Source of the DNA: Roseivivax sp. GX 12232
Lineage (GTDB): Bacteria; Pseudomonadota; Alphaproteobacteria; Rhodobacterales; Rhodobacteraceae
DNA: 64,000 bases
Assembly (NCBI RefSeq): GCF_021272185.1
Contig: NZ_JAJSEC010000009.1
Coordinates: 1-64,000 of the forward strand
Direction: 5' to 3'
Below the pieces are notes generated by a model that worked only from the letters and a program-made list of their open reading frames with translations, was not told the origin of the DNA and made no database searches. Shown here in pieces: positions 47,609 to 63,344 of the stretch (position 1 is its first letter; the number at the start of each line of letters is the position of its first letter). A program made the position numbers and the translations under genes.

Positions 47609-49033
47609 TCAAAGCAGGTGGCGGAGCGGCAGCTCCAGCCGACCGGCGAAATTGGACAGGAGGGTCACGGCCTCGGAGGCCGACAGCTGGGCGCTGCCGC
47701 ATTCCAGCGTGACCGCGAGGCCCGCGCCCTCACGGGTGAGGGTCAGGACCGGCGCGGCCTCCGCGCCGAGGGTGACGGTCTGGACCGCGCTGAAGCGCAG
47801 GTCGCGCAGGATCAGGTCGGGGGCGGCATCGCCCTCGGCCTCGGTGATCTGGCCAAGGGCCTGGCCCGGGACCGCGACGGCCCTGGTGGCGCCGAAGCTT
47901 TCCACCGCGACGGTGACGGCGCCCCGGTCGAGGCTGGCGCCCGCGAGCCCCGCGAGAAGCTGGGTCGCGTCGCCGAGGCCCATCTCGCGCGCGGCCCAGT
48001 CGGCGAAGGCCGAGAAGCCTTCCTCGGGGAGGCGCGCGGTCAGGTGACGGCTCGCGGCGGCGGCGCCGGGCGCGGTGTCCTCGGGCGGCAAGGCCTTCAA
48101 GACCTCGACGTCGGCGGCGTGGTAGGGCTGGGGATGGCCCGCCCGGACCAGGCGCGCGAGGTCGAGCCCCTGTTCCAGCGCCAGCCGCCGGGCCTTGGGC
48201 GAAGCGAGGATGCGGGTGCCCTCGGCGGGGGCGGCGCTCTGCGCACCGGGTGTGGCGGACTGCGCCGCGCCTGCCTTGGAAGCGGCGGGTTGAGGCGCGC
48301 CCGCTTTGGCCGCACCCGCTTTGGCGGGAGCGCTTGGTGCGGGCTTGGTCTCCGCCTCCGCACCGCCTGCCGCCGGTGGGGCGGCCTTCGCGGGGGCCGC
48401 GCCGGCCTTGCGGCTGCGGCTGATCGGGGCGGCGGGTTTGCTGGCGGAGATGATGGCGATGGGCTCGCCCACCGGCGCATCCTCCCCGGCCTCGGCCAGG
48501 AGCGCCGCGACGAAACCGTCGTGGCCCGCCTCGACATCCATGGTGGCCTTGTCGGTCTCGACCTCGAAGAGCACGTCTCCGGCGGCGACCGCATCGCCCG
48601 GGGCCTTGTGCCAGGCGACGATCTGGCCGGTGTCCTGGGCCATGCCGAGCGCGGGCATGATGACCTGGGCGCCCTCGGGCAGGGCGGTGTCGTCGGCGGC
48701 ATCCGAGCCGCTTGCGTCGTCGGACGCAGCCGGAGCGGTTCCGGCGTCGGACCCGCCGGACGCCGCGTCAGAGCCACCGGCCCCCGCCGCCTCCGCGCTG
48801 TCTGCGATCACCGCGATGACATTGCCGACCGGCACCTCGGCCCCGGCCTCGGCGCGCACATCGGTCAGGAAGCCCGCGCCCTGGGCCTCGACCTCCATGG
48901 TGGCCTTGTCGGTCTCGACTTCGAAAAGCACGTCGCCCTCGGCCACGGCCTCCCCCTGGGACTTGTGCCAGGAGACGATCAGCCCGGTGTCCTGCGCCAT
49001 GCCGAGCGCCGGCATGATGACCTCAAGCGGCAT
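47609..49033 (-). CDS. Double-lipoyl E2-like protein with decayed catalytic domain
   Basis: A 474-residue multidomain protein. Lipoyl domain 1 (1-78, ETDKATMEVE with Lys43) and lipoyl domain 2 (122-196, ETDKATMDVE with Lys161) are joined by Ala/Ser/Asp-rich linkers. A subunit-binding domain (274-313, ILASPKARRLALEQGL) follows. The C-terminal 145 residues align in outline with the end of an E2 catalytic domain (AAPVLTLTREGAGLAVTLEC...LPLRHLL) but are shortened and have lost the DHRxxxG active site. So it should carry lipoate and organise E1/E3 but not transfer the acyl group. The start overlaps the E1 beta stop by 11 bp. It pairs logically with the lipoyl-free E2 at 45242. Confidence 0.9.
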   Translation of the reverse strand: MPLEVIMPALGMAQDTGLIVSWHKSQGEAVAEGDVLFEVETDKATMEVEAQGAGFLTDVRAEAGAEVPVGNVIAVIADSAEAAGAGGSDAASGGSDAGTAPAASDDASGSDAADDTALPEGAQVIMPALGMAQDTGQIVAWHKAPGDAVAAGDVLFEVETDKATMDVEAGHDGFVAALLAEAGEDAPVGEPIAIISASKPAAPISRSRKAGAAPAKAAPPAAGGAEAETKPAPSAPAKAGAAKAGAPQPAASKAGAAQSATPGAQSAAPAEGTRILASPKARRLALEQGLDLARLVRAGHPQPYHAADVEVLKALPPEDTAPGAAAASRHLTARLPEEGFSAFADWAAREMGLGDATQLLAGLAGASLDRGAVTVAVESFGATRAVAVPGQALGQITEAEGDAAPDLILRDLRFSAVQTVTLGAEAAPVLTLTREGAGLAVTLECGSAQLSASEAVTLLSNFAGRLELPLRHLL

Positions 49034-50018
49034 GGATCATCTCCCGTGCGACCAGCTTGCGCGCCTGCGCGGCCACGCCTTCGGGCGTCGGCACGGTGAT
49101 GTCCTCGAGCGCGGGACTGAAGGGCACTGGCACATCCATCGCGCCCATGCGCAGGACCGGGGCGTCGAGATGGTAGAAGGCCTTCTCGTTGATCCGGCTC
49201 GCGATCTCGCCGGTGACGCCGTAGCTCTGGTGGCCCTCGTCGACGACGATCACCCGGCTGGTCTTCCTGGCCGAGGCCAGAAGCGTCGCCTCGTCCAAGG
49301 GCACGATGGTGCGCGGGTCGATGACCTCGGCCGAGATGCCCTCGGCCGCCAGGATCTCGGCGGCCTTCTCGCAGACCTGCACCATGGAGGAGGTGCCGAT
49401 CAGCGTGATGTCGGTGCCCTCGCGCTTCACGTTGGCCTCGCCGAAGGGGATCAGGAACTCTTCCTCGGGGACCGGGGCCTTGTCGTTGTACATGAGCTTG
49501 TCTTCGAAGATCACCACCGGGTTGTCGTCGCGGATGGCGGTCTTCATCAGGCCCTTGGCCTCGTAGGCCGAGGAGGGCAGGGCGACCTTCAGCCCCGGGA
49601 TATGCGCCACCAGCGCGTGCAGCGACTGGCTGTGCTGGGCCGCCGAGCGGCGCGTCGCGCCCAGGTTGGTGCGCAGCACCAGCGGCACCGAGAGCTTGCC
49701 GCCGGACATGTAGTGGGTCTTGGCCGCCTGGTTACAGAGCTGGTCCATGATCAGGTAGATGAAATCGCCGAACATCAGGTCGACGACGGGCCGGGTGCCG
49801 GTCATGGCGGCGCCGACGGCGAGCCCCATGAAGCCCGGTTCGGCGATCGGCGTGTCGACGACCCGCTGGGTGCCGAACTCCTCCACGAGGCCCGAGAGCA
49901 CCTTGAAGGGGGTGCCGGCCTCGGCGACGTCCTCGCCGATGATGAAGACCGTCTCGTCCCGGCGCATCTCCTCGGCGAGCGCCTCGTTCACGGCCTGGGA
50001 CAGGGTGATCTCTCGCAT
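49023..50018 (-). CDS. 2-oxo acid dehydrogenase E1, beta subunit
   Basis: A 331-residue transketolase-like subunit of the thiamine-dependent E1 heterotetramer. Landmarks are the N-terminal ITLSQAVNEALAEEMRRDETVFIIGEDVAEAGTPF in pieces, DTPIAEPGFMGLAVGAA, and the C-terminal transketolase domain with IDPRTIVPLDEATLLASARKTSRVIVVDEGH. The start at 50018 is the family start; the longer frame overlaps the alpha gene. It lies 28 bp after the alpha subunit. Sequence is of the pyruvate/acetoin dehydrogenase type rather than branched-chain type, though the exact 2-oxo substrate is uncertain. Confidence 0.94.
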   Translation of the reverse strand: MREITLSQAVNEALAEEMRRDETVFIIGEDVAEAGTPFKVLSGLVEEFGTQRVVDTPIAEPGFMGLAVGAAMTGTRPVVDLMFGDFIYLIMDQLCNQAAKTHYMSGGKLSVPLVLRTNLGATRRSAAQHSQSLHALVAHIPGLKVALPSSAYEAKGLMKTAIRDDNPVVIFEDKLMYNDKAPVPEEEFLIPFGEANVKREGTDITLIGTSSMVQVCEKAAEILAAEGISAEVIDPRTIVPLDEATLLASARKTSRVIVVDEGHQSYGVTGEIASRINEKAFYHLDAPVLRMGAMDVPVPFSPALEDITVPTPEGVAAQARKLVAREMIHAA

Positions 50019-50046
50019 GGGTGTGTTCCTCTTGCTCGGGCCGGGC

Positions 50047-51042
50047 TCAGGCCAGCGCGTGGTCGACGCCGACGTAGACATGCATGTCCACCTCGGAGAC
50101 GTCGGGATATTTGGCGTTCAGCGCGTATTCGACGGCGGATTTGGCATCGGCCTTGATCTCGCCGTTCATGGCCTCGATCTCGGCCTCGCTGGCGATGCCC
50201 TGGTCGACCAGCCAGGCGCGGAAGCGGATGATCGGGTCGCGGTTGTCCTTCCAGTCCTGTTCCTCGGACTTGGAGCGGTAGTATTCGCGGTTGATGTCGC
50301 CGACGTGGTGACCGTGGTAGCGATAGGTCATCAGCTCGAGGAAGAAGGGGCCCTCGCCCTTGCGGGCCCGGGCCACGAGGTCACGCGTGAGGTTGTTGAC
50401 CGCCAGCACGTCCTGGCCGTCGACCTGGTGCGCCTCGATGCCGAAGGCCTCGGCGCGGGCGGTGATCGAGCCGGCGGCGATCTCCTCGGTCTTGGTGTAT
50501 TCGGAATAGCCGTTGTTCTCGCAGGCGTAGATCACCGGCAGCTTCCAGAGCGCGGCCATGTTCATCACCTCGTACCAGAGGCCCTGGGCGGTGGCGCCGT
50601 CGCCGAAGAAGCAGACGGTCACATCCTTGGTGCCCAGCATCTTGGCGGTGAAGGCCGATCCGGTGGCGATGCCCATGGAGCCGCCGACGATGGCATTGGC
50701 CCCGAGGTTGCCGTTCGACTGGTCGGCGATATGCATCGAGCCGCCCTTGCCGCGGCAGTAGCCCTCTTCCTTGCCGAGAAGCTCGCAGAACATCTCGCGG
50801 AAGGCGGCGCCCTTGGCGACGCAATGGCCGTGGCCGCGGTGGGTCGAGGTGATCTTGTCGCTGGTGGTCAGCGCCTCGCAGATGCCCACCGCCACGGCTT
50901 CCTCGCCGGAATACATATGCGTGAGCCCCGGCATCTTGGCCGAGAGATAAAGCTGGTTGGCGTTGTCCTCGAAGGTGCGGATGCGGACCATCTGGCGGTA
51001 CATCCGCAGGTAGTCCTCGGTGTTGTGTTTGGTCTGTGCCAT
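50047..51042 (-). CDS. 2-oxo acid dehydrogenase E1, alpha subunit
   Basis: A 331-residue TPP-binding E1 alpha. The Mg-TPP motif is GDGATAQG (147-154) ending with ACENNGYS (173-180). The phosphorylation-loop-like TYRYHGHHVGD and substrate-side THRGHGHCVAKGA are typical of the pyruvate/acetoin dehydrogenase group. It would decarboxylate a 2-oxo acid (or cleave acetoin) and load the acyl group on the lipoyl domains of the 47609 protein. No dihydrolipoamide dehydrogenase (E3) is in the window, so that subunit must come from elsewhere. Confidence 0.94.
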   Translation of the reverse strand: MAQTKHNTEDYLRMYRQMVRIRTFEDNANQLYLSAKMPGLTHMYSGEEAVAVGICEALTTSDKITSTHRGHGHCVAKGAAFREMFCELLGKEEGYCRGKGGSMHIADQSNGNLGANAIVGGSMGIATGSAFTAKMLGTKDVTVCFFGDGATAQGLWYEVMNMAALWKLPVIYACENNGYSEYTKTEEIAAGSITARAEAFGIEAHQVDGQDVLAVNNLTRDLVARARKGEGPFFLELMTYRYHGHHVGDINREYYRSKSEEQDWKDNRDPIIRFRAWLVDQGIASEAEIEAMNGEIKADAKSAVEYALNAKYPDVSEVDMHVYVGVDHALA

Positions 51043-51111
51043 CTGGTCTTTCCCTGAGCTTGCGGGCGGGTCGGGGCCCCGCGGTCGGTCGCGGGGTGGG
51101 CCCCGGGCCGG

Positions 51112-52410
51112 TCAGTAGCGGTTGGCGATCGGCAGATCCTCGGCCGGGAAGAGCGAGATCACCTCGCAGCCGGTCTCGGTGACCACGACCTCCTCCTCGA
51201 TCCGGGCGGCGGAATAGCCGTCGGCGGCGGGGCAGTAGGTCTCGAGCGCGAAGACCATGCCGGTCTGGATCTCCATCGGGTGATCGAGCGACACCGCGCG
51301 GGAGATGATCGGCCGTTCGTGCAGCGCGAGGCCCAGCCCGTGGCCGAACTGCAGCCCGAAGGCGGCATCCTCGGAGGGGAAGCCGAACTCCTCGGCCTTG
51401 GGCCAGACCTCGGCGACCTTGTCGGTGCTCACGCCGGGCTTGATCATCTGGATCGAGGCGTCGATCCATTCGCGCGCCTTCACGTAGGCGTCGTTTTGCG
51501 CGGGCGTCGCCCGGCCGATGTTGAAGGTCCGGTAGTAGCAGGTCCGGTAGCCCTGGTAGGACTGCAGGATGTCGAAGAAGGCCTGGTCGCCGGGGCGGAA
51601 GTAGCGGTCGGTGAAATTGTGCGGATGCGGGTTGCAGCGCTCGCCCGAGATCGCGTTGATCGCCTCCACGTCGTCGGAGCCCATCTCGTAGAGCATCTTG
51701 TTCGACATCGCGACGATGTCGTTTTCGCGCACGCCCGGTTTCAGCTCTTCCCAGATCATGTGGTAGACGCCATCGACCATGCTCGCGGCCTGGGTCAGCA
51801 GCTGGATCTCGTCCCAGTTCTTGATCTCGCGGGCGGCCAGCATGATCTGCTGGCCATCGACGACCTTGATGCCTTCCTCCTGCAGGGCATGGAACATCGC
51901 GGTCTCGGCGTAGTCGACGCCCACCGGCATGTCGGCCATGCCGGCCTCCTTGATGAGGCGGGCGATCTCCTTGGCGTATTTGCGCATCAGGCCGAACTCG
52001 GGCGGGATGGTGCCGCGCATGCCCACGACGCCGGCAAGGCAGTGGTCGGGCTCGAGCCAGTCGGAATACTTCTGGTGGTGCACCGCCGCCGAGCCGAAGT
52101 CCCAGACATAGGGGCTGTCATCGCCGGTCAGCAGGCAGAAGCGGCACATCTTGTCCCGCTCCCATTCGCCGATCTTGGTGGCCGAGACGTAGCGGATGTT
52201 GTTCACGTCGAAGAGCAGGAGCGTGCCCGCGCCCGAGGCCTGCAGCGCCTGGCGGGTGCGCGCCAGCCGGTAGCGGCGCAGGCGGTCGTGGTCGATCCGG
52301 CGCTCGAAATCCACCGAGGTATGGCCCCAGGCGGGGATCCGCCCCTCCCATCGCCAGTTCGGTTCGAGGTCTTGCGGGGTCAGCATGTTGGGCATGAGTG
52401 CGCGGGACAT
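51112..52410 (-). CDS. M24 (creatinase/aminopeptidase P) family protein with altered metal site
   Basis: A 432-residue pita-bread-fold protein. The N-terminal creatinase-type domain is followed by the M24 domain with Asp280 (FFDILQ), His357 (FGHGLGLALHE), Glu390 (FALETY) and Glu405/406 (IEEEVVV). The second metal Asp expected near 291 (as in CTD/YSD before an Arg) is replaced: the sequence reads TCYYRTF, with Cys291. It distantly resembles the DMSP lyase DddP, which keeps both Asp residues, so DddP activity is not supported. The start at 52410 follows AAGGAGT. Possible roles are a C-N or C-S hydrolase/lyase or a peptidase with unusual metal use. Confidence 0.85.
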   Translation of the reverse strand: MSRALMPNMLTPQDLEPNWRWEGRIPAWGHTSVDFERRIDHDRLRRYRLARTRQALQASGAGTLLLFDVNNIRYVSATKIGEWERDKMCRFCLLTGDDSPYVWDFGSAAVHHQKYSDWLEPDHCLAGVVGMRGTIPPEFGLMRKYAKEIARLIKEAGMADMPVGVDYAETAMFHALQEEGIKVVDGQQIMLAAREIKNWDEIQLLTQAASMVDGVYHMIWEELKPGVRENDIVAMSNKMLYEMGSDDVEAINAISGERCNPHPHNFTDRYFRPGDQAFFDILQSYQGYRTCYYRTFNIGRATPAQNDAYVKAREWIDASIQMIKPGVSTDKVAEVWPKAEEFGFPSEDAAFGLQFGHGLGLALHERPIISRAVSLDHPMEIQTGMVFALETYCPAADGYSAARIEEEVVVTETGCEVISLFPAEDLPIANRY

Positions 52411-52497
52411 TAGGCAATACTCCTTGGGGCGCGTGCCGGGCACGCACCGGATTTCTGCAGGGCGGAAAGGGGGCGCGGGATCACGCCCCCGGGGGCG

Positions 52498-53307
52498 TCA
52501 CTGGATGCACCAGCCGCCGTCGATGTGGATCATCTGGCCGGTCATGTAGTCGCTGTCGTCCGAGGCCAGGAAAGCGGCCGTGCCGGTGATGTCCTCGGGG
52601 TAGGAGACCCGCTTGATCTGCAGCGCGTCGCGGACGATGTCCTCGTAGGCCTGGCCTTCCTTCTGCTTGAAGCCGATGTCCACGAGGTCCTTGTCGAGCT
52701 GCTCCCAGAGCGGGGTGACGACGACGCCGGGGGCATAGCCGTTCACGGTGATCTTGTGCTCGGCCAGGCCGATGGCGCCGCAATGGGTGAGCGCCAGGCA
52801 GCCGTATTTCGAGGTGCAATAGACCGTCACATCCACGAGCGGCTTGCGCGAGGCGATCGAGCCCACGTTGATCAGCTTGTAGGGGTGATCCTCCATCGGC
52901 CCCTGCTTGATCATCTGGCGGGCGGTCTCCTGCATGCCGAGCCACATCGCCTTGGTGTTGACGTTCATGATCATGTCCCAGTTGTCCTCATCGATATCCA
53001 TGAAGAACCGGGGCTTGTTCAGGCCGGCGTTGAAGAGACCGACGTTGATGGAGCCGAAGGCCTCGACCGTGGCGGCCACCGCGGCGGCGTTGTCGGCGCG
53101 CTTGGTGACGTCGCAGGTGACCGCAATCGCCTTGCCGCCGCCGGCGGCGTTGATCCGCTCGGCGGTCTGCGCGGCCTCGTCGCCGTCGAGATCGGCGATG
53201 CAGACATTCGCGCCCTGGGCGGCGAAGGCCTCGGCATTGGCCGCGCCCATGCCGCGGGCGGCGCCGGTGATCAGGATGTGCTTGCCGGTCAGGCGGTTGG
53301 GGTCCAT
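52498..53307 (-). CDS. SDR-family oxidoreductase A
   Basis: A 269-residue short-chain dehydrogenase. NAD(P) motif TGAARGMGAANAEAF near residue 15, VCIADLDG with Asp favouring NAD, catalytic Tyr and Lys in VYCTSKYG, and a Ser in VGSIAS. The last residues, DYMTGQMIHIDGG, match the SDR at 56410 closely, as do several internal blocks, so the two are paralogues. It lies 18 bp downstream of the fused regulator gene on the same strand and probably oxidises a polyol or sugar from the adjacent ABC importer. Substrate not determined. Confidence 0.92.
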   Translation of the reverse strand: MDPNRLTGKHILITGAARGMGAANAEAFAAQGANVCIADLDGDEAAQTAERINAAGGGKAIAVTCDVTKRADNAAAVAATVEAFGSINVGLFNAGLNKPRFFMDIDEDNWDMIMNVNTKAMWLGMQETARQMIKQGPMEDHPYKLINVGSIASRKPLVDVTVYCTSKYGCLALTHCGAIGLAEHKITVNGYAPGVVVTPLWEQLDKDLVDIGFKQKEGQAYEDIVRDALQIKRVSYPEDITGTAAFLASDDSDYMTGQMIHIDGGWCIQ

Positions 53308-53325: not shown

Positions 53326-55158
53326 TCATGTGGGTCCGGGGGCCCGGACGATCGCCTCGGCCCGCGCCTGGGCCTTGCGGATGGCCTCGCGCGGCGTGAC
53401 GATGCCGCGCAGCATGTCGTGAAATTCCTCGCCGCAGATCTGGATGATGTCGGTGATCTCGGGCACCGGCGGGCGCGGCCAGAACTGCAGCTCGTCGCGC
53501 CAGGACATGGCGTCCACCGCCTCGAAGATCGGCGAGATGCGGCGCACCTCGGGGTCGGCGCCGACGGAATAGCGCGGGTTGGTGCGGCTGCCGTTCTGCA
53601 CGTACATCTTCTGCGCCTCGGGCGAGGTGAAGAGCACCAGCGCCTCGACGGCGGCGCGCACGCGGTCCTCGGGCAGATTGGCGGGAATGCCCATGACGTA
53701 GCCGCCCACCGGCGCCAGCGCCCGGCCGCCCGGGCCCGCGGGATGCGGCAGGTAGCCGGTGTTGCCCGCCGCCGGCGAGGTCTCGTCGAGCTCGAAGAAG
53801 GGCGCGAGCAGCGTGTAGCCATAGGCCATGGCGATCTTGCCCGCCGCATAGGGGCGGACGCGCTCGTACCAGGACATCGACAGGATGTCGGGCGGCGAGA
53901 ACTCCAGAAGCTGGAGCAGGAACTCCGCGGCGCGCAGGCCGCCCTCGGTGTCGATCGTCGGGCGGTAGTCGCGCCGGGCCAGGTGGTCGGTCTCGAAGCC
54001 CCCGGCGATCTCGGGCAAATCGAGGACCGGCTGGCCGAAATCGGCCATGGTCATCAGGACGGTATGGCCAAGCGCGGTGCCCCGGGCGGCGTTCCAGCCG
54101 ATGCCGTAGCGCCCGCGCAGGGGCTCGTGGAAGCGCTGGGCGGCCTTCAGAAGCGCATCGGTCGTCGCGGGCGCGGCCAGCCCCGCCTCGGCGAACAGAT
54201 CCTTGCGGTAGAACAGCACCTCGGGCGTGGTCTGGGCCGGCGCGCCATAGGGCCGTCCGCCCCAATGCGCGGCCTTCCAGCCGGCGGTGTGGAAATCCGC
54301 CGGATCGAGCCGGGCGATGTCCATCGCCTCGTCGAGCGGCATCAGCACGCCGCTTTCCGCGAAATCCCCGATCCAGGGCAGGTCGACGGCGATGATGTCG
54401 TAGCGGCTGGTCTTGCGCTCGGCGTTGCGCCGGGCCTCCTCGCGCAGCCGGTCGATGGAGAAGGCGCGCTGGTGGATCTGCGCGCCGATGGCCTGTTCGA
54501 ACTGCCGCTTGAGCGTGTCCATGACCATGAAGGTCGGATCGCCGTGGACCAGGACCCGCAGCCCGCCCGGCAGCTTGATCGGCTCCGAGAGGACCTGCAT
54601 CGGCGGGATCGCACTGGTGGCCATATAGGAGCCGCCGTAGAAGTAATCCTCGTCCCCGCCGGGGCGGTCGGCGCCGCCGAAGCTGGTGCGGGCCAGCCGT
54701 TCGACGCGGCCCGAGAGCTGCATCCATTGTTCCATCAGCTTGTCGCTGGGATGCAGCGAGAAGCTCTTGCCGCTCTGGGTGCGGGGGCGACGCTCGATCA
54801 GCCCGGCCTCGACCATCTCGTTCATGCGCCGGGTGGCGGTGGCGTAAGGCACGCGGCTTTGCCCCACGAGGGAGGTCGGCGTGATGATCTTCGCCTCGAG
54901 ATGGCCGCGCACCAGGTGCAGCATCATCCGAAAGTAGGGATTGGGCTCCACCAGTTCGAAGGTGTGGTCGAGCTCGTCGCCGAATTTATCCAGAAAGGAC
55001 AGGATACGCAGCATCTTGGTCTTCGCCTGGGGCGAGACCTGGCTGGTCGTGAGTTGTCCTTGCATGGCGTTCATCTGCGGCGGTATCGTCTCGTGGGTCG
55101 CGGAGCGCGCCTTTTTGCGCGGGCCACTCCGGCGGTTGGGGGATCTGCGTCGCACCAC
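53326..55158 (-). CDS. Winged-helix regulator fused to a family-1 ABC solute-binding domain
   Basis: A 610-residue protein with an unusual architecture. Residues 1-28 are basic (VRRRSPNRRSGPRKK) and not a signal peptide. Residues about 75-155 form a MarR-like winged helix: TPTSLVGQSRVPYATATRR, then MNEMVEAGLIERRP and a wing at 125-136. From about 193 to the end is a complete extracellular solute-binding family 1 (MalE-like) domain: RVLVHGDPTFMVMDTLKRQF, YDIIAVDLPWIGDFAESG, YRKDLFAEAGLAAPAT, VGGYVMGIPANLPEDR, EALVLFTSPEAQKMYVQNGS. The start is GTG at 55158 behind GAGGAG. It is divergent from the sugar ABC operon and likely a cytoplasmic one-component sensor that represses or activates it. Annotation pipelines may call it only a binding protein. 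Confidence 0.88.
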   Translation of the reverse strand: MVRRRSPNRRSGPRKKARSATHETIPPQMNAMQGQLTTSQVSPQAKTKMLRILSFLDKFGDELDHTFELVEPNPYFRMMLHLVRGHLEAKIITPTSLVGQSRVPYATATRRMNEMVEAGLIERRPRTQSGKSFSLHPSDKLMEQWMQLSGRVERLARTSFGGADRPGGDEDYFYGGSYMATSAIPPMQVLSEPIKLPGGLRVLVHGDPTFMVMDTLKRQFEQAIGAQIHQRAFSIDRLREEARRNAERKTSRYDIIAVDLPWIGDFAESGVLMPLDEAMDIARLDPADFHTAGWKAAHWGGRPYGAPAQTTPEVLFYRKDLFAEAGLAAPATTDALLKAAQRFHEPLRGRYGIGWNAARGTALGHTVLMTMADFGQPVLDLPEIAGGFETDHLARRDYRPTIDTEGGLRAAEFLLQLLEFSPPDILSMSWYERVRPYAAGKIAMAYGYTLLAPFFELDETSPAAGNTGYLPHPAGPGGRALAPVGGYVMGIPANLPEDRVRAAVEALVLFTSPEAQKMYVQNGSRTNPRYSVGADPEVRRISPIFEAVDAMSWRDELQFWPRPPVPEITDIIQICGEEFHDMLRGIVTPREAIRKAQARAEAIVRAPGPT

Positions 55159-55212
55159 GGCGGCACTCCTCGAGATTGTTCAAATCGATCAATTCAGCGT
55201 ATCGCGATAATG

Positions 55213-55251
55213 TCCAAATTGGATATGAACATATTCAAGATGGACATATTC
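55213..55251. promoter_or_regulatory. Candidate operators in the divergent regulator/ABC promoter
   Basis: Three sites lie in an AT-rich patch of the 220-bp divergent region: the odd-centred palindrome TCCAAATTGGA (55213-55223) and the direct repeats GAACATATTC (55227-55236) and GGACATATTC (55242-55251), 15 bp apart. They are well placed for the fused winged-helix regulator at 53326 to control itself and the operon starting at 55379. The repeats are seen; binding is inferred. Confidence 0.5.
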
Positions 55252-55378
55252 ACGGACCCCGTGGGCGACCGGGCACGGCAGGCTTCAAGGGCTCGCCGGA
55301 CTTTCGGCGGCGGATGTCCGACGGCTGGAGGAGCCGGAGGGCAGACGTTCAACAGGATCATTCGGGAGGAGACCGAAC

Positions 55379-56335
55379 ATGACATCGCGCAAGACACTCG
55401 CCGCATCCACGGCGCTCGTATCGCTGGCCTTCGCAGGCGCGGCCGCCGCCGAGACGATGAAGATCGGGATCACGCAGAACAACGTCGGCGTGGACAGCTA
55501 CCAGACCACCTACGAGAAGGCCTTCATCGCGGCCGCCGAGGCCAACGACAGCGTCGAGACGGTGGTGCTTGACGCCGGCGGCGACGTGGCGCGGCAGATC
55601 GCCCAGATGGAGGACCTGATCCAGCAGGAGGTCGACGCCATCATCATCTGGCCGACCAACGGCGAGGCGGTGATCCCCGCGGTCCGCAAGGCCTTCCAGG
55701 CCGACATCCCGGTGATCGTCACCAATTCCAATATCGCCGAGGCCGGCTTCGACTTCGTGAAGTCCTTCTCGGGCCCCGACAACATCACCCAGGGCGCGCG
55801 CTCGGCCGAGATCATGTGCGACAAGTTCAAGGAGATGGGCATCGAGACCGAGGCCCAGGTCGTGCATATCACCGGCCAGCCGGGCTACACCACGGCGATC
55901 GAACGCGCCAAGGGCTTCGAGGACCGTCTGCCCGAGGTCTGCCCCGAGGTGAGTGTGGTCGACACCCAGCCGGGCGACTGGAACCGCGAGAAGTCGCAGA
56001 AGGTCATGGAGGCCTTCCTGGTCAAATACGACGACATCGACGGCGTCTATGCGGGCGACGACAACATGGGCGTGGGCGCGCTGAACGCCGCCAAGGCCGC
56101 CGACCGCGACGGCATCATCTTCGTCGGCGCCACCAACTTCGCGGTGGGCTACGAGGCGATGGAGCGCGGCGAATACTGGGGCTCGATCTACCAGTCGCCG
56201 GTCGATGACGCCGAGGCGGCGCTGCAGACCGCCATCGACGTGCTGAACGGCGAGGAGGTGCCCTTCCTCAACTACTTCGACACCCCGAAGATCACCCAGG
56301 ACAACATGGGCGATTACACCAAGCCGGTCTTCTAA
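55379..56335 (+). CDS. Sugar ABC transporter substrate-binding protein (ribose type)
   Basis: A 318-residue periplasmic protein of the peripla_BP_4/RbsB class. The signal peptide is MTSRKTLAASTALVSLAFAG with cleavage after AAA near residue 24, then MKIGITQNNVGVDSYQTTYE, AIIIWPTNGEAVIPAV, and a hinge region with GVYAGDDNMGVGALNAAK. GGGAGGAG precedes the ATG. It is the first gene of the operon (SBP, SDR, permease, permease, ATPase). Ligands of this class are pentoses, hexoses, polyols and autoinducer-2; the presence of an SDR suggests a polyol or sugar that is oxidised on entry. Confidence 0.93.
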   Translation: MTSRKTLAASTALVSLAFAGAAAAETMKIGITQNNVGVDSYQTTYEKAFIAAAEANDSVETVVLDAGGDVARQIAQMEDLIQQEVDAIIIWPTNGEAVIPAVRKAFQADIPVIVTNSNIAEAGFDFVKSFSGPDNITQGARSAEIMCDKFKEMGIETEAQVVHITGQPGYTTAIERAKGFEDRLPEVCPEVSVVDTQPGDWNREKSQKVMEAFLVKYDDIDGVYAGDDNMGVGALNAAKAADRDGIIFVGATNFAVGYEAMERGEYWGSIYQSPVDDAEAALQTAIDVLNGEEVPFLNYFDTPKITQDNMGDYTKPVF

Positions 56336-56409
56336 GGTCGACACACAAGCCGGGCGGGGCAGTGGCCGCGCCCGGCGCTTTCACGTCACTTTGGCCGAGG
56401 GAGGGGACT

Positions 56410-57207
56410 TTGGCGCGTGTGAAGGGTCGGTCCTGCATCGTCACCGGTGCGGCACGGGGCATCGGACGGGCGATCGGCGAGGCGCTGCTCGACGAGGGTG
56501 CCGACGTCTGTTTCGCCGATATCAATGGCACGGCGATCCGCGAGGTCGCCCTGGCCAATGCCGCCCGCGCCGAGGCAGGCGGCGGCAAGGTCACCTGGGC
56601 GCAGGTCGACGTGGCCGAGCGGGCCGAGGTCCGCGCCATGATCGACAAGGCGGTCGGCGCCTTCGGCAAGCTCGACGTGATGTTCAACAACGCCGGCGTG
56701 AACAAGCCGATGAACTTCCTCGATGTGACCGAGGAGAACTGGACCTTCATCATGCGGGTCAACGGCCTAGGCTGCCTGATCGGCATGCAGGAGGCGGCCC
56801 AGCAGTTCATCCGCCAGGGCAGCTTCGGCAAGATCGTCAACACCGCCTCGGTGGCCAGCCGGCAGGGCTTCGACACGGTCGCCCCCTACTGCGCCAGCAA
56901 ATGGGGCGTGGTCTCGCTGACCCAGTCGGGGGCGCGCGACCTGGCCAAGCACGACATCACCGTGACCGGCTTCGCCCCGGGCGTGGTCGCCACCGAGATG
57001 TGGGACGAGGTCGACCGCGACCTCATGGAGATCGGCGCGGCCGAGAAGCCGGGCCAGGCGATGCAGGAGTTCTCGGCTTCGATCCTGCGCGGCCGGGTCG
57101 CGCGGCCGCAGGACATCACCGGCACGACCACCTTCCTGGCCTCGCCCGAGAGCGACTACATGACCGGCCAGATCGTGATGATCGACGGGGGAATGACCCT
57201 GGTCTGA
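56410..57207 (+). CDS. SDR-family oxidoreductase B
   Basis: A 265-residue short-chain dehydrogenase: TGAARGIGRAIGEALL near the start, VCFADING with the NAD-type Asp, NNAGVNKPMNF, Ser in NTASVAS, and the catalytic pair in YCASKWG. The best start is TTG at 56410, after GAGGGAGGGGAC. It is a paralogue of SDR A on the other side of the divergent promoter (shared APGVV, DITGT, DYMTGQ blocks and spacing). It lies between the binding protein and the permeases, so it is co-expressed with the importer and probably performs the first oxidation of the sugar or polyol. Confidence 0.92.
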   Translation: MARVKGRSCIVTGAARGIGRAIGEALLDEGADVCFADINGTAIREVALANAARAEAGGGKVTWAQVDVAERAEVRAMIDKAVGAFGKLDVMFNNAGVNKPMNFLDVTEENWTFIMRVNGLGCLIGMQEAAQQFIRQGSFGKIVNTASVASRQGFDTVAPYCASKWGVVSLTQSGARDLAKHDITVTGFAPGVVATEMWDEVDRDLMEIGAAEKPGQAMQEFSASILRGRVARPQDITGTTTFLASPESDYMTGQIVMIDGGMTLV

Positions 57208-57243
57208 TCGCGGGTGGCGCCCGGTCCCGGAGGAGGGGAACGG

Positions 57244-58275
57244 ATGGCTGACATTTCAGGCAGAGAGGCGCGCCAGAGGGGCGCAGGAAGGGAGAGACGC
57301 ATGTCCGGCGTGAACAAGGCGCAGATCGGCGGGTTCCTGGCCCGCCAGGGCATCCTGGTGGCCTTCGTGGTCTTCATGGTGGGGTTCACCCTCGCCAATC
57401 AGCGGTTTCTCGATCCCGACAACATCATGGGGGTCATGCGGTCCTCGGCGATCCTGGGGGTCATGGCGCTGGGCGTCACCTTCGTGGTGATCTCGGGCAA
57501 CCTCGACCTCTCGGTCGGCTCGATGATGTCCTTCTCGACGATCGTGGTGCTGGACCTGCACGACAAGCTCGGCCCGGCCCTGGCGATCCCGGCGATGTTC
57601 GCCATGACGCTCTGCCTCGGGGCCTTCATCGGCTTCCTGGTGGGCTATCTGAAGCTCAATTCGTTGATCGTCACGCTGGGGATGCTCTCGGCGATCCACG
57701 GGCTGACGCTGACCTATTCGGGCGGCCAGAACATGGACATCGCCGACAAGGAGGGCACCTGGTTCTCGGTCTTCGGCCAGGGCGAGGCGCTGGGCATCCC
57801 GGTGCCGATCCTGATCTTCGTGGGGCTCGCGGCACTCCTGGGCGTGACGCTCGGCAAGACGCCTTTCGGGCGCAAGGTCTACGCCGTCGGCGGCAATGGC
57901 ACCGCGGCGACCTTCTCGGGCATCCGGCGGGCGCGGGTGGTCTTCATCTGCTACCTGATGTCCTCCTTCTGCGTGGCCACCGCCGGGCTGATCCAGGCCA
58001 GCCGCTCGCTCGGCTCGCAGAACACCGTGGGCCAGGGGCTCGAGCTCGAGGTGCTGGCGGCGATCATCCTCGGCGGGGCCTCGCTCCTCGGCGGCTCGGG
58101 CACGATCTTCAAGACGGTGATCGGCGTGTTGATCCTGGGCTTCATCCAGAACGGCCTGCTGCTCGTCGGGCTGCAGTTCTACGTCCAATATGTCGTCACC
58201 TGGGTCATCATCATCCTTGCGGTCTGGCTCGACATCGCGGCCAAGCGCGGCAAGCTCTGGTCGCCCATCGCGTAA
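57244..58275 (+). CDS. Sugar ABC permease 1 (RbsC type)
   Basis: A 343-residue inner-membrane permease of the ribose/xylose/AI-2 class. About eight to ten hydrophobic segments, with LGVTFVVISGNLDLSVGSM near residue 88 and GGNGTAATFSGIRR as the loop facing the ATPase. The ATG at 57244 has a near-perfect GGAGGAGGGG site; another ATG at 57301 with GGGAGAG gives a 324-residue protein closer to the family length and is also possible. It is followed after 7 bp by a second, different permease, suggesting a heterodimeric channel. Confidence 0.9.
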   Translation: MADISGREARQRGAGRERRMSGVNKAQIGGFLARQGILVAFVVFMVGFTLANQRFLDPDNIMGVMRSSAILGVMALGVTFVVISGNLDLSVGSMMSFSTIVVLDLHDKLGPALAIPAMFAMTLCLGAFIGFLVGYLKLNSLIVTLGMLSAIHGLTLTYSGGQNMDIADKEGTWFSVFGQGEALGIPVPILIFVGLAALLGVTLGKTPFGRKVYAVGGNGTAATFSGIRRARVVFICYLMSSFCVATAGLIQASRSLGSQNTVGQGLELEVLAAIILGGASLLGGSGTIFKTVIGVLILGFIQNGLLLVGLQFYVQYVVTWVIIILAVWLDIAAKRGKLWSPIA

Positions 58276-58282
58276 GGGAGAA

Positions 58283-59286
58283 ATGGTTATGCAAGCGGGT
58301 TCCCTGTCCACCTTCCTCAAGCGCGGCGCGATCTGGGGCTTCATCGTCCTCGAGCTGATCTTCTTCAGCGTCGCCGGAGAGTTCATGTCGCTCAGCGACA
58401 AGGCCTTCATGGACGTCGACAACATGTTGCTGCTGTTCAAGCAGTCCGCGCCGATCGGCATCATCGCCATGGGCATGACCATCGTGATGATCAACGGCAA
58501 CATCGACCTCTCGGTCGGGGCGATCTACGCGATCTGCGCGATCATCCTGCTCGACAGCATGACCTGGCCGATCTTCGCAGGCCTCGGCGACTGGGCGATC
58601 CCGGTGGCCTGGCTCCTGGCGCTGGGCGCGGGCGTGGGGCTCGGCGCGCTCAACGGGCTGATCGTCTGGAAGACCGGGGTCGACGCCTTCATCGTGACGC
58701 TGGGCGCCATGCTCGGATACCGCGGGCTGGTCTTCATGTACAACGGCGAGCAGCCCACCAGCCATCTGAACTGGACGCTGGTCGACTTCGCCGAGGCGCA
58801 GGTCCTCGGCCTGCACACCGCAACCTGGTTCCTGCTCGCGGTGACGGCGGCGATCTGGTTCCTGATGAACAAGACCGTGCACGGCCGCAACGCCTATGCC
58901 ATCGGCGACAACCGCGAGGCGGCTGTGAACGCCGGGATCCGGGTCGGCCCGCACATGATGATCAACTTCATGATCATCGGCTTTCTCGCCGCGCTCTCGG
59001 CGGTGGTCTTCTACTCCGAAAGCGGCTCGGTGAACCCCAACGACGGCGAGCTCTACGAGCTCTGGGTGATCACCGCGGTGGTCCTCGGCGGCACCAAGCT
59101 CACCGGCGGCTCGGGCTCGATCATCTCGACCCTCGGCGGGGTGCTGGCGATCCAGCTTTTGCGCAAGGGGCTCGCCCATATCGGCGCCGACACCGAGACG
59201 GTGAACCTGGTGATCGGCCTGATCCTGATCGCGGTCCTCTTCCTGGACCGGCAGCTCAACATCAAGGGCAAAGAGGAGCTCAAGGT

Positions 59287-59290
<4 letters not shown>
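58283..59290 (+). CDS. Sugar ABC permease 2 (RbsC type)
   Basis: A 335-residue permease of the same class as the preceding one but clearly diverged. GMTIVMINGNIDLSVGAI matches the first permease's NLDLSVG motif, and NAYAIGDNREAAVNAGIRV is the coupling loop. AGGGAGAA precedes the ATG at 58283; a second in-frame ATG is two codons later. It ends in an ATGA overlap with the ATPase gene. Two different permeases with one ATPase and one binding protein make a complete importer. Confidence 0.92.
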
Positions 59291-60801
<1,511 letters not shown>

Positions 60802-62781: not shown

Positions 62782-63063
62782 TCAGTAGCCGGTGCCTTGC
62801 CGGTTGTCCCAGAGGCGCAGGATCTCAATCCGCGTCGCGGTCACGCGGTAGATCAGCGTGAAGGGCGTTCGCGGGATCGACAGCTCGCGCAAGTCTGCGT
62901 GCAGCTCGCTTGGATGCCCGGCGTAGGGATTGGCCGCCAGCGTCTGCTGGATCGCCTTCAGATGCGCCCGGGCCTTGGCGCTGCCTTCGGGAAAGACCGA
63001 GACGTAATAGTAGCGGAACCACTGGATGTCCCGCGCGGCGTCCTCGAGGAAGACGATCTTCAT
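62782..63063 (-). CDS. ParE/RelE-family toxin
   Basis: A 93-residue protein of the ParE/RelE superfamily: IVFLEDAARDIQWFRYYY at the start, NPYAGHPSELHADLRELSIPRTPFTLIYRV in the middle, and IEILRLWDNRQ at the end. Members are either gyrase poisons (ParE) or ribosome-dependent mRNases (RelE). The lack of a clear RelE catalytic set leans to ParE, but that is uncertain. It overlaps the antitoxin gene by 4 bp (63060-63063), the usual antitoxin-first arrangement. Confidence 0.9.
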   Translation of the reverse strand: MKIVFLEDAARDIQWFRYYYVSVFPEGSAKARAHLKAIQQTLAANPYAGHPSELHADLRELSIPRTPFTLIYRVTATRIEILRLWDNRQGTGY

Positions 63064-63344
63064 GCCTCGTCGGGCGTGATGTCCGCCTTCGGGGCGGGCC
63101 CTTCATCCTCGGTGTCCCAGGTGTCGATCCAGTCGTTCATCGCTTCGGCGGAAATGAAGCGTCCCTGGTCGGCCTGCCGCAGCGCGGCCTCGAGGGCGGC
63201 GCGTTTCGTGGCCTTGGCCTCCAGCATGGCGCGGATGGCGCGGACCGCGAGCTGCGCGGGCGGGCGATCCTCAAGCGCCGCTTCCCGCTCCAGCGATTGC
63301 CGAAGCTCGTCGTCGAGGCGGATCGAATAAGGTGCGGTGCCCAT
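63060..63344 (-). CDS. Ribbon-helix-helix antitoxin
   Basis: A 94-residue protein whose N-terminal 45 residues (YSIRLDDELRQSLEREAALEDR in part) form a ribbon-helix-helix DNA-binding domain. The acidic C-terminal tail (NDWIDTWDTEDEG) would wrap the toxin. It is the first gene of the pair and should repress its own promoter; a 7-bp direct repeat lies just upstream at 63368-63384. GGGGAC precedes the ATG. Confidence 0.88.
   Translation of the reverse strand: MGTAPYSIRLDDELRQSLEREAALEDRPPAQLAVRAIRAMLEAKATKRAALEAALRQADQGRFISAEAMNDWIDTWDTEDEGPAPKADITPDEA

Follow-up and report, generated by a model that had tools for sequence, protein, structure and literature searches.

Is a protein that joins a winged helix to a complete MalE-type solute-binding domain the receptor of a transporter, as its homologs are commonly labeled, or a transcription regulator that acts inside the cell? 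The question is raised by a gene (53326–55158, minus strand; identified from its open reading frame, Pfam and AlphaFold2) on a 64,000-nucleotide stretch of Roseivivax sp. GX 12232 (contig NZ_JAJSEC010000009.1; the whole stretch is hereafter referred to as the window), which starts with GTG, encodes 610 aa and lies divergently adjacent to a ribose-type ATP-binding cassette (ABC) transporter operon. We favor, with a probability of about 0.7, its identification as a cytoplasmic, ligand-responsive one-component regulator acting as autorepressor and as activator of transport and catabolic genes. The features established by computation are the domains and their fold class, the lack of a hydrophobic export signal, the conservation of the family, and the operator motif with its spacing; among them is the combination of a predicted DNA-binding and a sensor domain in one chain with a conserved operator that characterizes one-component regulators.

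Domain searches and structure prediction agree on the architecture. The C-terminal part belongs to the SBP_bac_1 family (PF01547; 101.9 bits against a Pfam cut-off of 26, residues 250–517) and also matches SBP_bac_8 (75.2 bits), and SBP_bac_1 is above its cut-off in all nine correctly framed divergent relatives as well (60.8–105.3 bits). An AlphaFold2 model of residues 41–610, built with 21 relatives (mean predicted local distance difference test score, pLDDT, of 78.8; predicted template-modeling score, pTM, of 0.67), contains a winged-helix core at residues 74–137 (54748–54939, minus strand) with helices at 74–87, 94–100 and 105–117 and a wing at 121–137 made of strands 121–125 and 133–137, followed by a connecting helix (139–159), a low-confidence linker (about 157–183) and a MalE-type solute-binding domain starting at about residue 200 (residues 200–605; 53344–54561, minus strand), within which a second stretch of low confidence spans residues 524–535. 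Foldseek ranked 5iai first for the full model (template-modeling score, TM, of 0.85 by target length, 25% identity), and the closest solved relatives of the binding half are all receptors of sugar transporters, namely 5iai (E 3.9e-29), the trehalose/maltose protein 1eu8 and MalE3 6dtq; a family profile matches 5iai with an E-value of 1.5e-40 over profile positions 160–563. Modeled alone, the N-terminal piece reaches a pLDDT of 81.6, and MarR-fold proteins make up most of its 50 listed Foldseek matches, none of them at E ≤0.001 and with TM of about 0.3–0.5 by query length. Pfam matches in this region stay below cut-off for MarR (PF01047; 16.8 against 24.6 bits, residues 92–132) and for PF12802 (15.7 against 27 bits), and one of the nine divergent relatives passes HTH_IclR (22.6 bits against 22). 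The initial annotation, made from the sequence alone, had proposed precisely this fusion of a winged helix (residues 75–155) with a full MalE-class domain (193–605); the fusion is confirmed by SBP_bac_1, AlphaFold2 and Foldseek, with domain limits close to those proposed.

The fused protein defines a family of its own. A contig scan of genomes returned 199 pattern-matching stretches, of which 186 encode a relative, and the results that follow rest on the best 80. These are 66–78% identical to the window protein in their best segment, and their matches run from query residue 42 or earlier to residues 603–610; the fear that no homolog would share the fusion is thereby dispelled, and the 80 loci kept carry it, usually beside a ribose-type ABC operon. 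Gene order is constant, with the gene for an RbsB-type receptor, usually a short-chain dehydrogenase/reductase (SDR) gene, two permease genes and an ATPase gene on one side, and the regulator gene, an SDR gene and an M24 gene on the other. The RbsB gene is divergent and adjacent in 79 of the 80 loci and the downstream SDR gene is present in 79, each with a contig end as the exception (L061 and L084, respectively), and in 74 loci the M24 gene lies 3' of the regulator gene on the same strand; among the exceptions it is found on the other side in L070, and in the other five the contig stops with, or shortly beyond, the regulator or SDR gene. Relatives are present in dozens of alphaproteobacterial genomes and in a single genome from a different class (G505), and seven of nine genomes of the source genus, the source genome included, carry a fused member. 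Taken together, these data form a coherent picture of a widespread alphaproteobacterial family of probable regulators with its own predicted operator.

Profile searches extended to broader genome samples. Matches to the winged-helix profile of at least 100 bits numbered 10 in 8 of 385 genomes of the class sample and 9 in 6 of 398 genomes of the phylum sample (two genomes belong to both samples, and some are probably the same as genomes of the contig scan); every one lies in a frame of 564–714 aa, and the next score is at most 41 bits. The weak matches are not supported as further members: 41 such frames are listed, two of them the same protein, and of the 10 that were scanned eight are receiver-domain response regulators and the remaining two gave only weak helix-turn-helix matches. 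By this same count, the nearest other winged helices (L094–L137) are often output domains at the C terminus of such response regulators. A search of 21 genomes with the window's binding domain yielded 11 matches in fused frames, all of at least 361 bits, and three unfused matches in frames of 443–483 aa, at most 69 bits.

The N terminus of the protein bears directly on its location. The GTG start is preceded by GAGGAG at a distance of 7 bases, and in 71 of the 80 loci an ATG or GTG with a (loosely defined) Shine-Dalgarno-like sequence occurs 15–45 codons upstream of the position of residue 29; a start candidate near residue 29 itself is found in 45 loci, the upstream candidate alone in 32 and the near one alone in six. 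Residues 1–28 are therefore likely translated; the gene starts at the equivalent of residue 29 in the Phaeobacter inhibens P92 record. On the Kyte-Doolittle scale the most hydrophobic 11-residue stretch within residues 1–42 has a mean of −0.13; the corresponding value for the neighboring exported RbsB receptor, taken over its first 30 residues, is 2.04. Among 81 relatives (the 80 loci plus the paralogue in the source genome) 75 fall below 1.0, with a median of 0.15 and a maximum of 1.45, and the 80 RbsB proteins have a median of 1.92 and a minimum of 0.14, so that the two ranges overlap. Judged in this way, from hydrophobicity alone and with mechanically assigned protein starts, the regulator's N terminus holds no stretch resembling a signal peptide. 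This bears out the earlier claim that a signal peptide is absent, and there is no sign by hydrophobicity of a secretion signal ahead of the binding domain, a finding that the initial annotation had named as refuting. Nor do CUT1 permeases lie beside the gene: the adjacent permeases are of the BPD_transp_2 (CUT2) type and have their own Peripla_BP_4 receptor, of type I, in keeping with the initial annotation's description of a gene divergent from a ribose-type operon whose receptor belongs to another fold class.

The interval between the regulator and RbsB genes contains a candidate operator, a 17-bp palindrome (ATATCCANNNTGGATAT) built from AT-rich words common to these intervals and fitted to 80 of them (79 loci and the window). 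Two predicted sites stand out in the window, O2 (ATGTCCAAATTGGATAT, plus strand, 22.8 bits; 55210–55226), which overlaps the putative −35 element of the regulator promoter, and O1 (ATATTCAAGATGGACAT, plus strand, 15.5 bits; 55231–55247), located 21 bp from O2 and adjoining the putative transporter promoter; a weak third site (8.5 bits; 55176–55192) lies 34 bp from O2, near the putative start of regulator transcription. At least two sites occur in all 80 intervals, and the exact 21-bp spacing is seen in 78 site pairs, against 16 for the next commonest spacing. The third, weaker site is present in 75 of the 80 intervals, most commonly 82–87 bp from O2, on or close to the first regulator codons, and the window's 34-bp arrangement recurs in 11 pairs. 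The intervals hold 257 operator matches, whereas 20 block-shuffled sets averaged 7.7. The 79 loci, 1,271,335 bases in all, contain 160 sites of at least 16 bits, of which 157 fall in the regulator–RbsB interval; of the three outside it, one precedes the relocated M24 gene of L070 by about 0.1 kb. Sites of at least 10 bits occur in the 64-kb window only at 55210 and 55231, and in the 4.12-Mb source genome the pattern TATCCANNNTGGATA is found with at most one mismatch at three places, this locus being one, and a control pattern at none. The conserved operator, though predicted, provides strong further support for a regulator.

The motif extends to loci that took no part in its construction. In L139, L142 and L143, whose regulators are 64, 65 and 52% identical to the window's, a pair of sites again lies 21 bp apart. 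Thirteen divergent loci (regulator at most 52% identical; a set that leaves out L141, which overlaps L140, and the closer relatives L139, L142, L150–L153 and L157, with L151 and L153 being the same DNA as L008 and L020 and hence no extra evidence) hold 27 sites of at least 16 bits, a number reached by none of 500 column-permuted palindromes in the same loci (mean 0.47 sites, at most 10). By the gene tables 23 of these 27 sites are intergenic; the one at 9926 in L144 falls within the longest possible frame, yet before the likely start. In three AT-rich genomes of 1.4 Mb, perhaps from Pelagibacterales (L144, L145 and L147; loci of 36–37% GC, regulators 29–33% identical), sites precede the RbsB gene in three of three, the SDR-M24-E1 genes in three of three and a third operon in two of three. 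The first gene of that third operon resembles, by eye, a sugar-phosphate isomerase/epimerase, and a Gfo/Idh-like gene is adjacent. In L146, where transporter and E1 genes surround the regulator gene, the sites stay between the SDR and RbsB genes and ahead of the M24 gene, which indicates that the motif tracks the targets and not the regulator gene.

The placement of the sites relative to putative promoter elements suggests how the regulator might act. A putative −10 element of the transporter operon (CAGGCT; 55279–55284, plus strand) is separated from O1 by 31 intervening bp and has the form ANNNT in 75 of 80 intervals, and a putative −10 element of the regulator gene (TACGCT; 55196–55201, minus strand) follows just after O2, with TANNNT at +46 from O1 in 58 of 80; a block from +59 to +74 from O1, in keeping with the weak third site, is also conserved across the 80 intervals. 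Lying at +21 to +37 from O1 in the direction of the regulator gene, O2 covers the −35 region of the putative regulator promoter, an arrangement that looks like autorepression. In the small AT-rich genomes a −10-like hexamer (at least five of six matches to TATAAT) occurs 30–32 bp from the site in all eight promoters examined, matching the 31 bp of the window's family. A constant operator-to-−10 distance in proteins so diverged, with no consensus −35 element seen by eye at normal spacing, suggests contact with RNA polymerase, and the operator spacing hence suggests that the regulator activates the transporter genes. No terminator was found in 55100–55420.

A mechanism consistent with these features can be outlined. 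A dimer formed through the MarR-like winged helix would bind the tandem palindromes, which are 21 bp, or two helical turns, apart. The MalE-type domain, remaining inside the cell, would close on a small ligand, perhaps an imported polyol- or sugar-like substrate or its product, and closure would alter either DNA binding or contact with RNA polymerase. The regulator would repress its own promoter through O2, which covers the −35 region, and in its liganded form would activate the promoters of the transport and catabolic genes, in each case from a site separated from the −10 element by about 31 bp.

Several observations weigh against the proposed autorepressor and activator or limit the evidence for it. 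Its winged helix passes no Pfam MarR cut-off. A sigma-70 scan finds no consensus promoter in 55100–55420, leaving the −10 elements to rest on conservation; −10-like hexamers are common in AT-rich DNA, three of the eight promoters of the small genomes hold others at other distances, and all eight stem from three related genomes. A TG conserved some 20 bp ahead of the −10 element of the transporter operon (G in 66 of 80 intervals, T in 42) could belong to an ordinary, long-spaced −35 element. The third site has no single fixed place, and the shuffle and interval counts draw on the motif's own training sequences, the independent evidence being the 21-bp spacing and the untrained loci. For the latter, the 16-bit threshold was set after the divergent-locus scan had been seen, some of the loci are close kin (L144, L145 and L147; L160–L162), and four of the 27 sites are coding (the two in L138, one in L146 and one in L148), with the other site of L148 intergenic and outside the regulator's cluster. 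No site in L140 reaches 16 bits, and the clade of the source genome's own paralogue seems to use another or weaker site. Weak sites of 12–13 bits at 9702 in L138, 9544 in L140 and 7123 in L148 read TCAGA..TGGA and not TCCA...TGGA, perhaps a clade-specific operator.

These reservations leave room for a pure repressor of both divergent operons, released by its ligand in the manner of LacI. Simple repressors are common in sugar operons, O1 lies near the −35 position of the transporter promoter, the −35 region of the regulator promoter is overlapped by O2, and joint action of the three sites in an interval is conceivable. The AT-rich genomes speak for activation instead: their promoters have single sites, centered about 50 bp before the expected start, a place commoner for activators, and lack, by eye, a consensus −35 element at normal spacing. 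SgrR of E. coli activates its targets. The same protein exerts negative control over its own gene (PMC13060122). We regard pure repression as unlikely, if still a serious competitor.

What the regulator senses may be approached through its neighborhood. The likely target operon begins with the gene for the RbsB-type (type I) periplasmic receptor (55379–56335, plus strand; Peripla_BP_4, 177 bits) and continues with genes identified by profile searches as encoding an SDR dehydrogenase, two CUT2 permeases and a CUT2 ATPase (56362–60801, plus strand). On the other side, profile searches and neighborhood comparison place an SDR dehydrogenase gene 3' of the regulator gene (52498–53307, minus strand), probably co-transcribed with it, followed by a catabolic part (47609–52443, minus strand) encoding an M24 peptidase-fold protein, pyruvate-dehydrogenase-like E1 alpha and E1 beta subunits and a lipoyl-type protein. 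The SDR profiles are those of acetoin/2,3-butanediol or sugar-alcohol dehydrogenases, all those shown scoring below NCBIfam cut-offs, and some of the top structure matches of the RbsB protein are presumably polyol-binding; neither the SDR profiles nor the RbsB structure matches allowed the transported compound to be named. The E1 proteins resemble pyruvate dehydrogenase E1, with alpha below the cut-offs and beta above one subfamily cut-off. The stretch 47609–51042 (minus strand), with E1 alpha, E1 beta and a protein showing two lipoyl-type repeats by eye, is often conserved with the regulator, and its products resemble a specialized 2-oxoacid or acetoin-type dehydrogenase. The M24 protein (51112–52443, minus strand) is likewise conserved in the cluster; its top NCBIfam match is the dimethylsulfoniopropionate lyase DddP, to which its likeness is weak (120.8 bits against a cut-off of 600). 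Two adjacent short frames elsewhere in the window (62782–63344, minus strand) resemble, by eye, a ParE/RelE-type toxin and its antitoxin.

Divergent members occur in other genetic contexts. The source genome holds a second member, 38–39% identical, beside another RbsB-like gene. In a tree of 27 rows (among which L139 is misframed and its long branch meaningless) this paralogue and the rhizobial, small-genome and Skermanella/Agrobacterium members form one well-supported group of 13, outside of which fall the window protein and its orthologues. The member in G505 is 52% identical and lies with the same transporter (RbsB 81%). In the small AT-rich genomes the regulator lies beside a quite different RbsB transporter, whose receptor is 21–22% identical to the window's, with clear relatives of the SDR (57–58%) and M24 (66–68%) proteins and weaker ones of the E1 proteins (37–44%). 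Rhizobium and Sinorhizobium members, 34–36% identical, are found beside ring-cleavage dioxygenase, maleylacetate reductase and dehydrogenase genes, a context suggesting a ligand different from the window's. In the rhizobial loci L160, L161 and L162, intradiol dioxygenase, maleylacetate reductase, Gfo/Idh and YciI genes lie nearby and an operator-like site occurs in the divergent interval. The Agrobacterium relative is followed downstream by a second, CUT1-like transporter with its own family-1 receptor. Beside the Skermanella regulator (L158, 10910–17285) a transposition module of TniQ, TniB, a Mu-type transposase and two recombinases occupies the place where others have the catabolic half.

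We propose, tentatively and with considerable doubt, that in this family a MalE-type receptor was turned inward to become the regulator's sensor, and that this sensor and the transporter's unrelated type I receptor recognize one and the same compound on either side of the membrane, with self-repression and with activation at a fixed 31 bp from the −10 element. The binding domain might instead read a catabolic intermediate or other metabolite, not the transported compound, or serve as a mere dimerization part. The rhizobial neighborhood of ring-cleavage and maleylacetate reductase genes, with no sugar transporter in the stretches read, lends weight to another ligand, and ligands probably vary by clade. 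A relic is harder to reconcile with the binding domain's many invariant positions, which persist even with the source genome's paralogue in the alignment, and another ligand with the CUT2 transporter that stands alongside in the window's group and several other clades; we judge this alternative improbable on balance, about as much so as pure repression.

An exported solute-binding protein of an ABC transporter with a spurious winged helix has in its favor chiefly the database names. All 33 matches in plasmid records span at least 80% of the query, and of the 30 listed 24 are annotated as "extracellular solute-binding protein" and none as a regulator. The lack of a hydrophobic N terminus, the predicted winged helix, the conserved operator and the transporter's possession of its own receptor all argue against these names; on the hydrophobicity and operator evidence we reject export as very improbable, and consider that most of the plasmid records listed probably misname what is a cytoplasmic regulator. 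A frameshift or assembly error joining two genes, a possibility that the initial annotation had kept in view, is refuted to the point of negligible probability by the recurrence of the fused frame in each of the 80 loci kept, in every match of at least 100 bits in the genome samples and in all 11 matches of at least 361 bits among close relatives.

If the cytoplasmic regulator proposed here is real, many proteins labeled "extracellular solute-binding protein" hide transcription regulators with a readable operator, and their annotation could be corrected. Regulons could then be drawn for a conserved catabolic cluster of marine and soil bacteria, including small AT-rich genomes in which regulators are probably few. 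With the well-studied MalE fold linked directly to a DNA-binding domain, the architecture would lend itself to modular biosensor design, and whether a regulator and a transporter use unrelated receptors for one ligand would become testable.

How does this architecture compare with known systems? The exported CUT1 receptors (5iai, 1eu8 and 6dtq) have a binding domain alike in sequence and fold, but are exported and lack a DNA-binding domain. MarR proteins and response regulators with MarR-like ends share the predicted winged-helix fold and differ in their sensor domain, and the regulator falls below the Pfam MarR cut-offs. The initial annotation had called the architecture uncharacterized. For the SBP_bac_1 version, the papers listed in the literature searches made here include none on a transcription regulator fused to SBP_bac_1, and to our knowledge no regulator of the SgrR, DsvR, AraR or TrmB type has a family-1 sensor; the claim overlooked, however, the precedent of SgrR. 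The TrmB effector domain is not known to be an SBP_bac_1 domain. Membership in that family was rejected, PF01978 being absent from the regulator at E ≤1 and below threshold in three of nine relatives, in a search that did not treat the effector domain separately. The SgrR family, for which SgrR_N is the name of a domain, was likewise rejected, with neither SgrR_N nor SBP_bac_5 among the regulator's Pfam matches at E ≤1.

Archaeal TrmB proteins join a winged helix to a sugar-binding effector domain and repress or activate sugar ABC genes (PMC4158304), and thus resemble the window's regulator in combining a winged helix with a sugar-binding-type sensor and in having sugar ABC transporter genes as targets. 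AraR of Bacillus subtilis, a homodimer (PMC4218819), is similar in that a winged helix is joined to a sugar sensor resembling a periplasmic binding protein, and differs in that the winged helix is of the GntR type and the binding fold LacI-type (type I). SgrR of E. coli and DsvR of Vibrio cholerae carry a helix-turn-helix or winged helix with SBP_bac_5 and are autoregulated (PMC13060122), sharing with the window's regulator an N-terminal DNA-binding domain, a C-terminal full-length solute-binding domain and (here predicted) autoregulation. They differ in the solute-binding family, 5 as opposed to 1, and E. coli SgrR controls a small RNA (PMC13060122), whereas the likely target here is the divergent ABC operon. 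SgrR, with its DNA-binding domain and family-5 solute-binding domain, is the nearest precedent for the regulator described here, and what is new is the family-1 sensor and a likely operator of its own.

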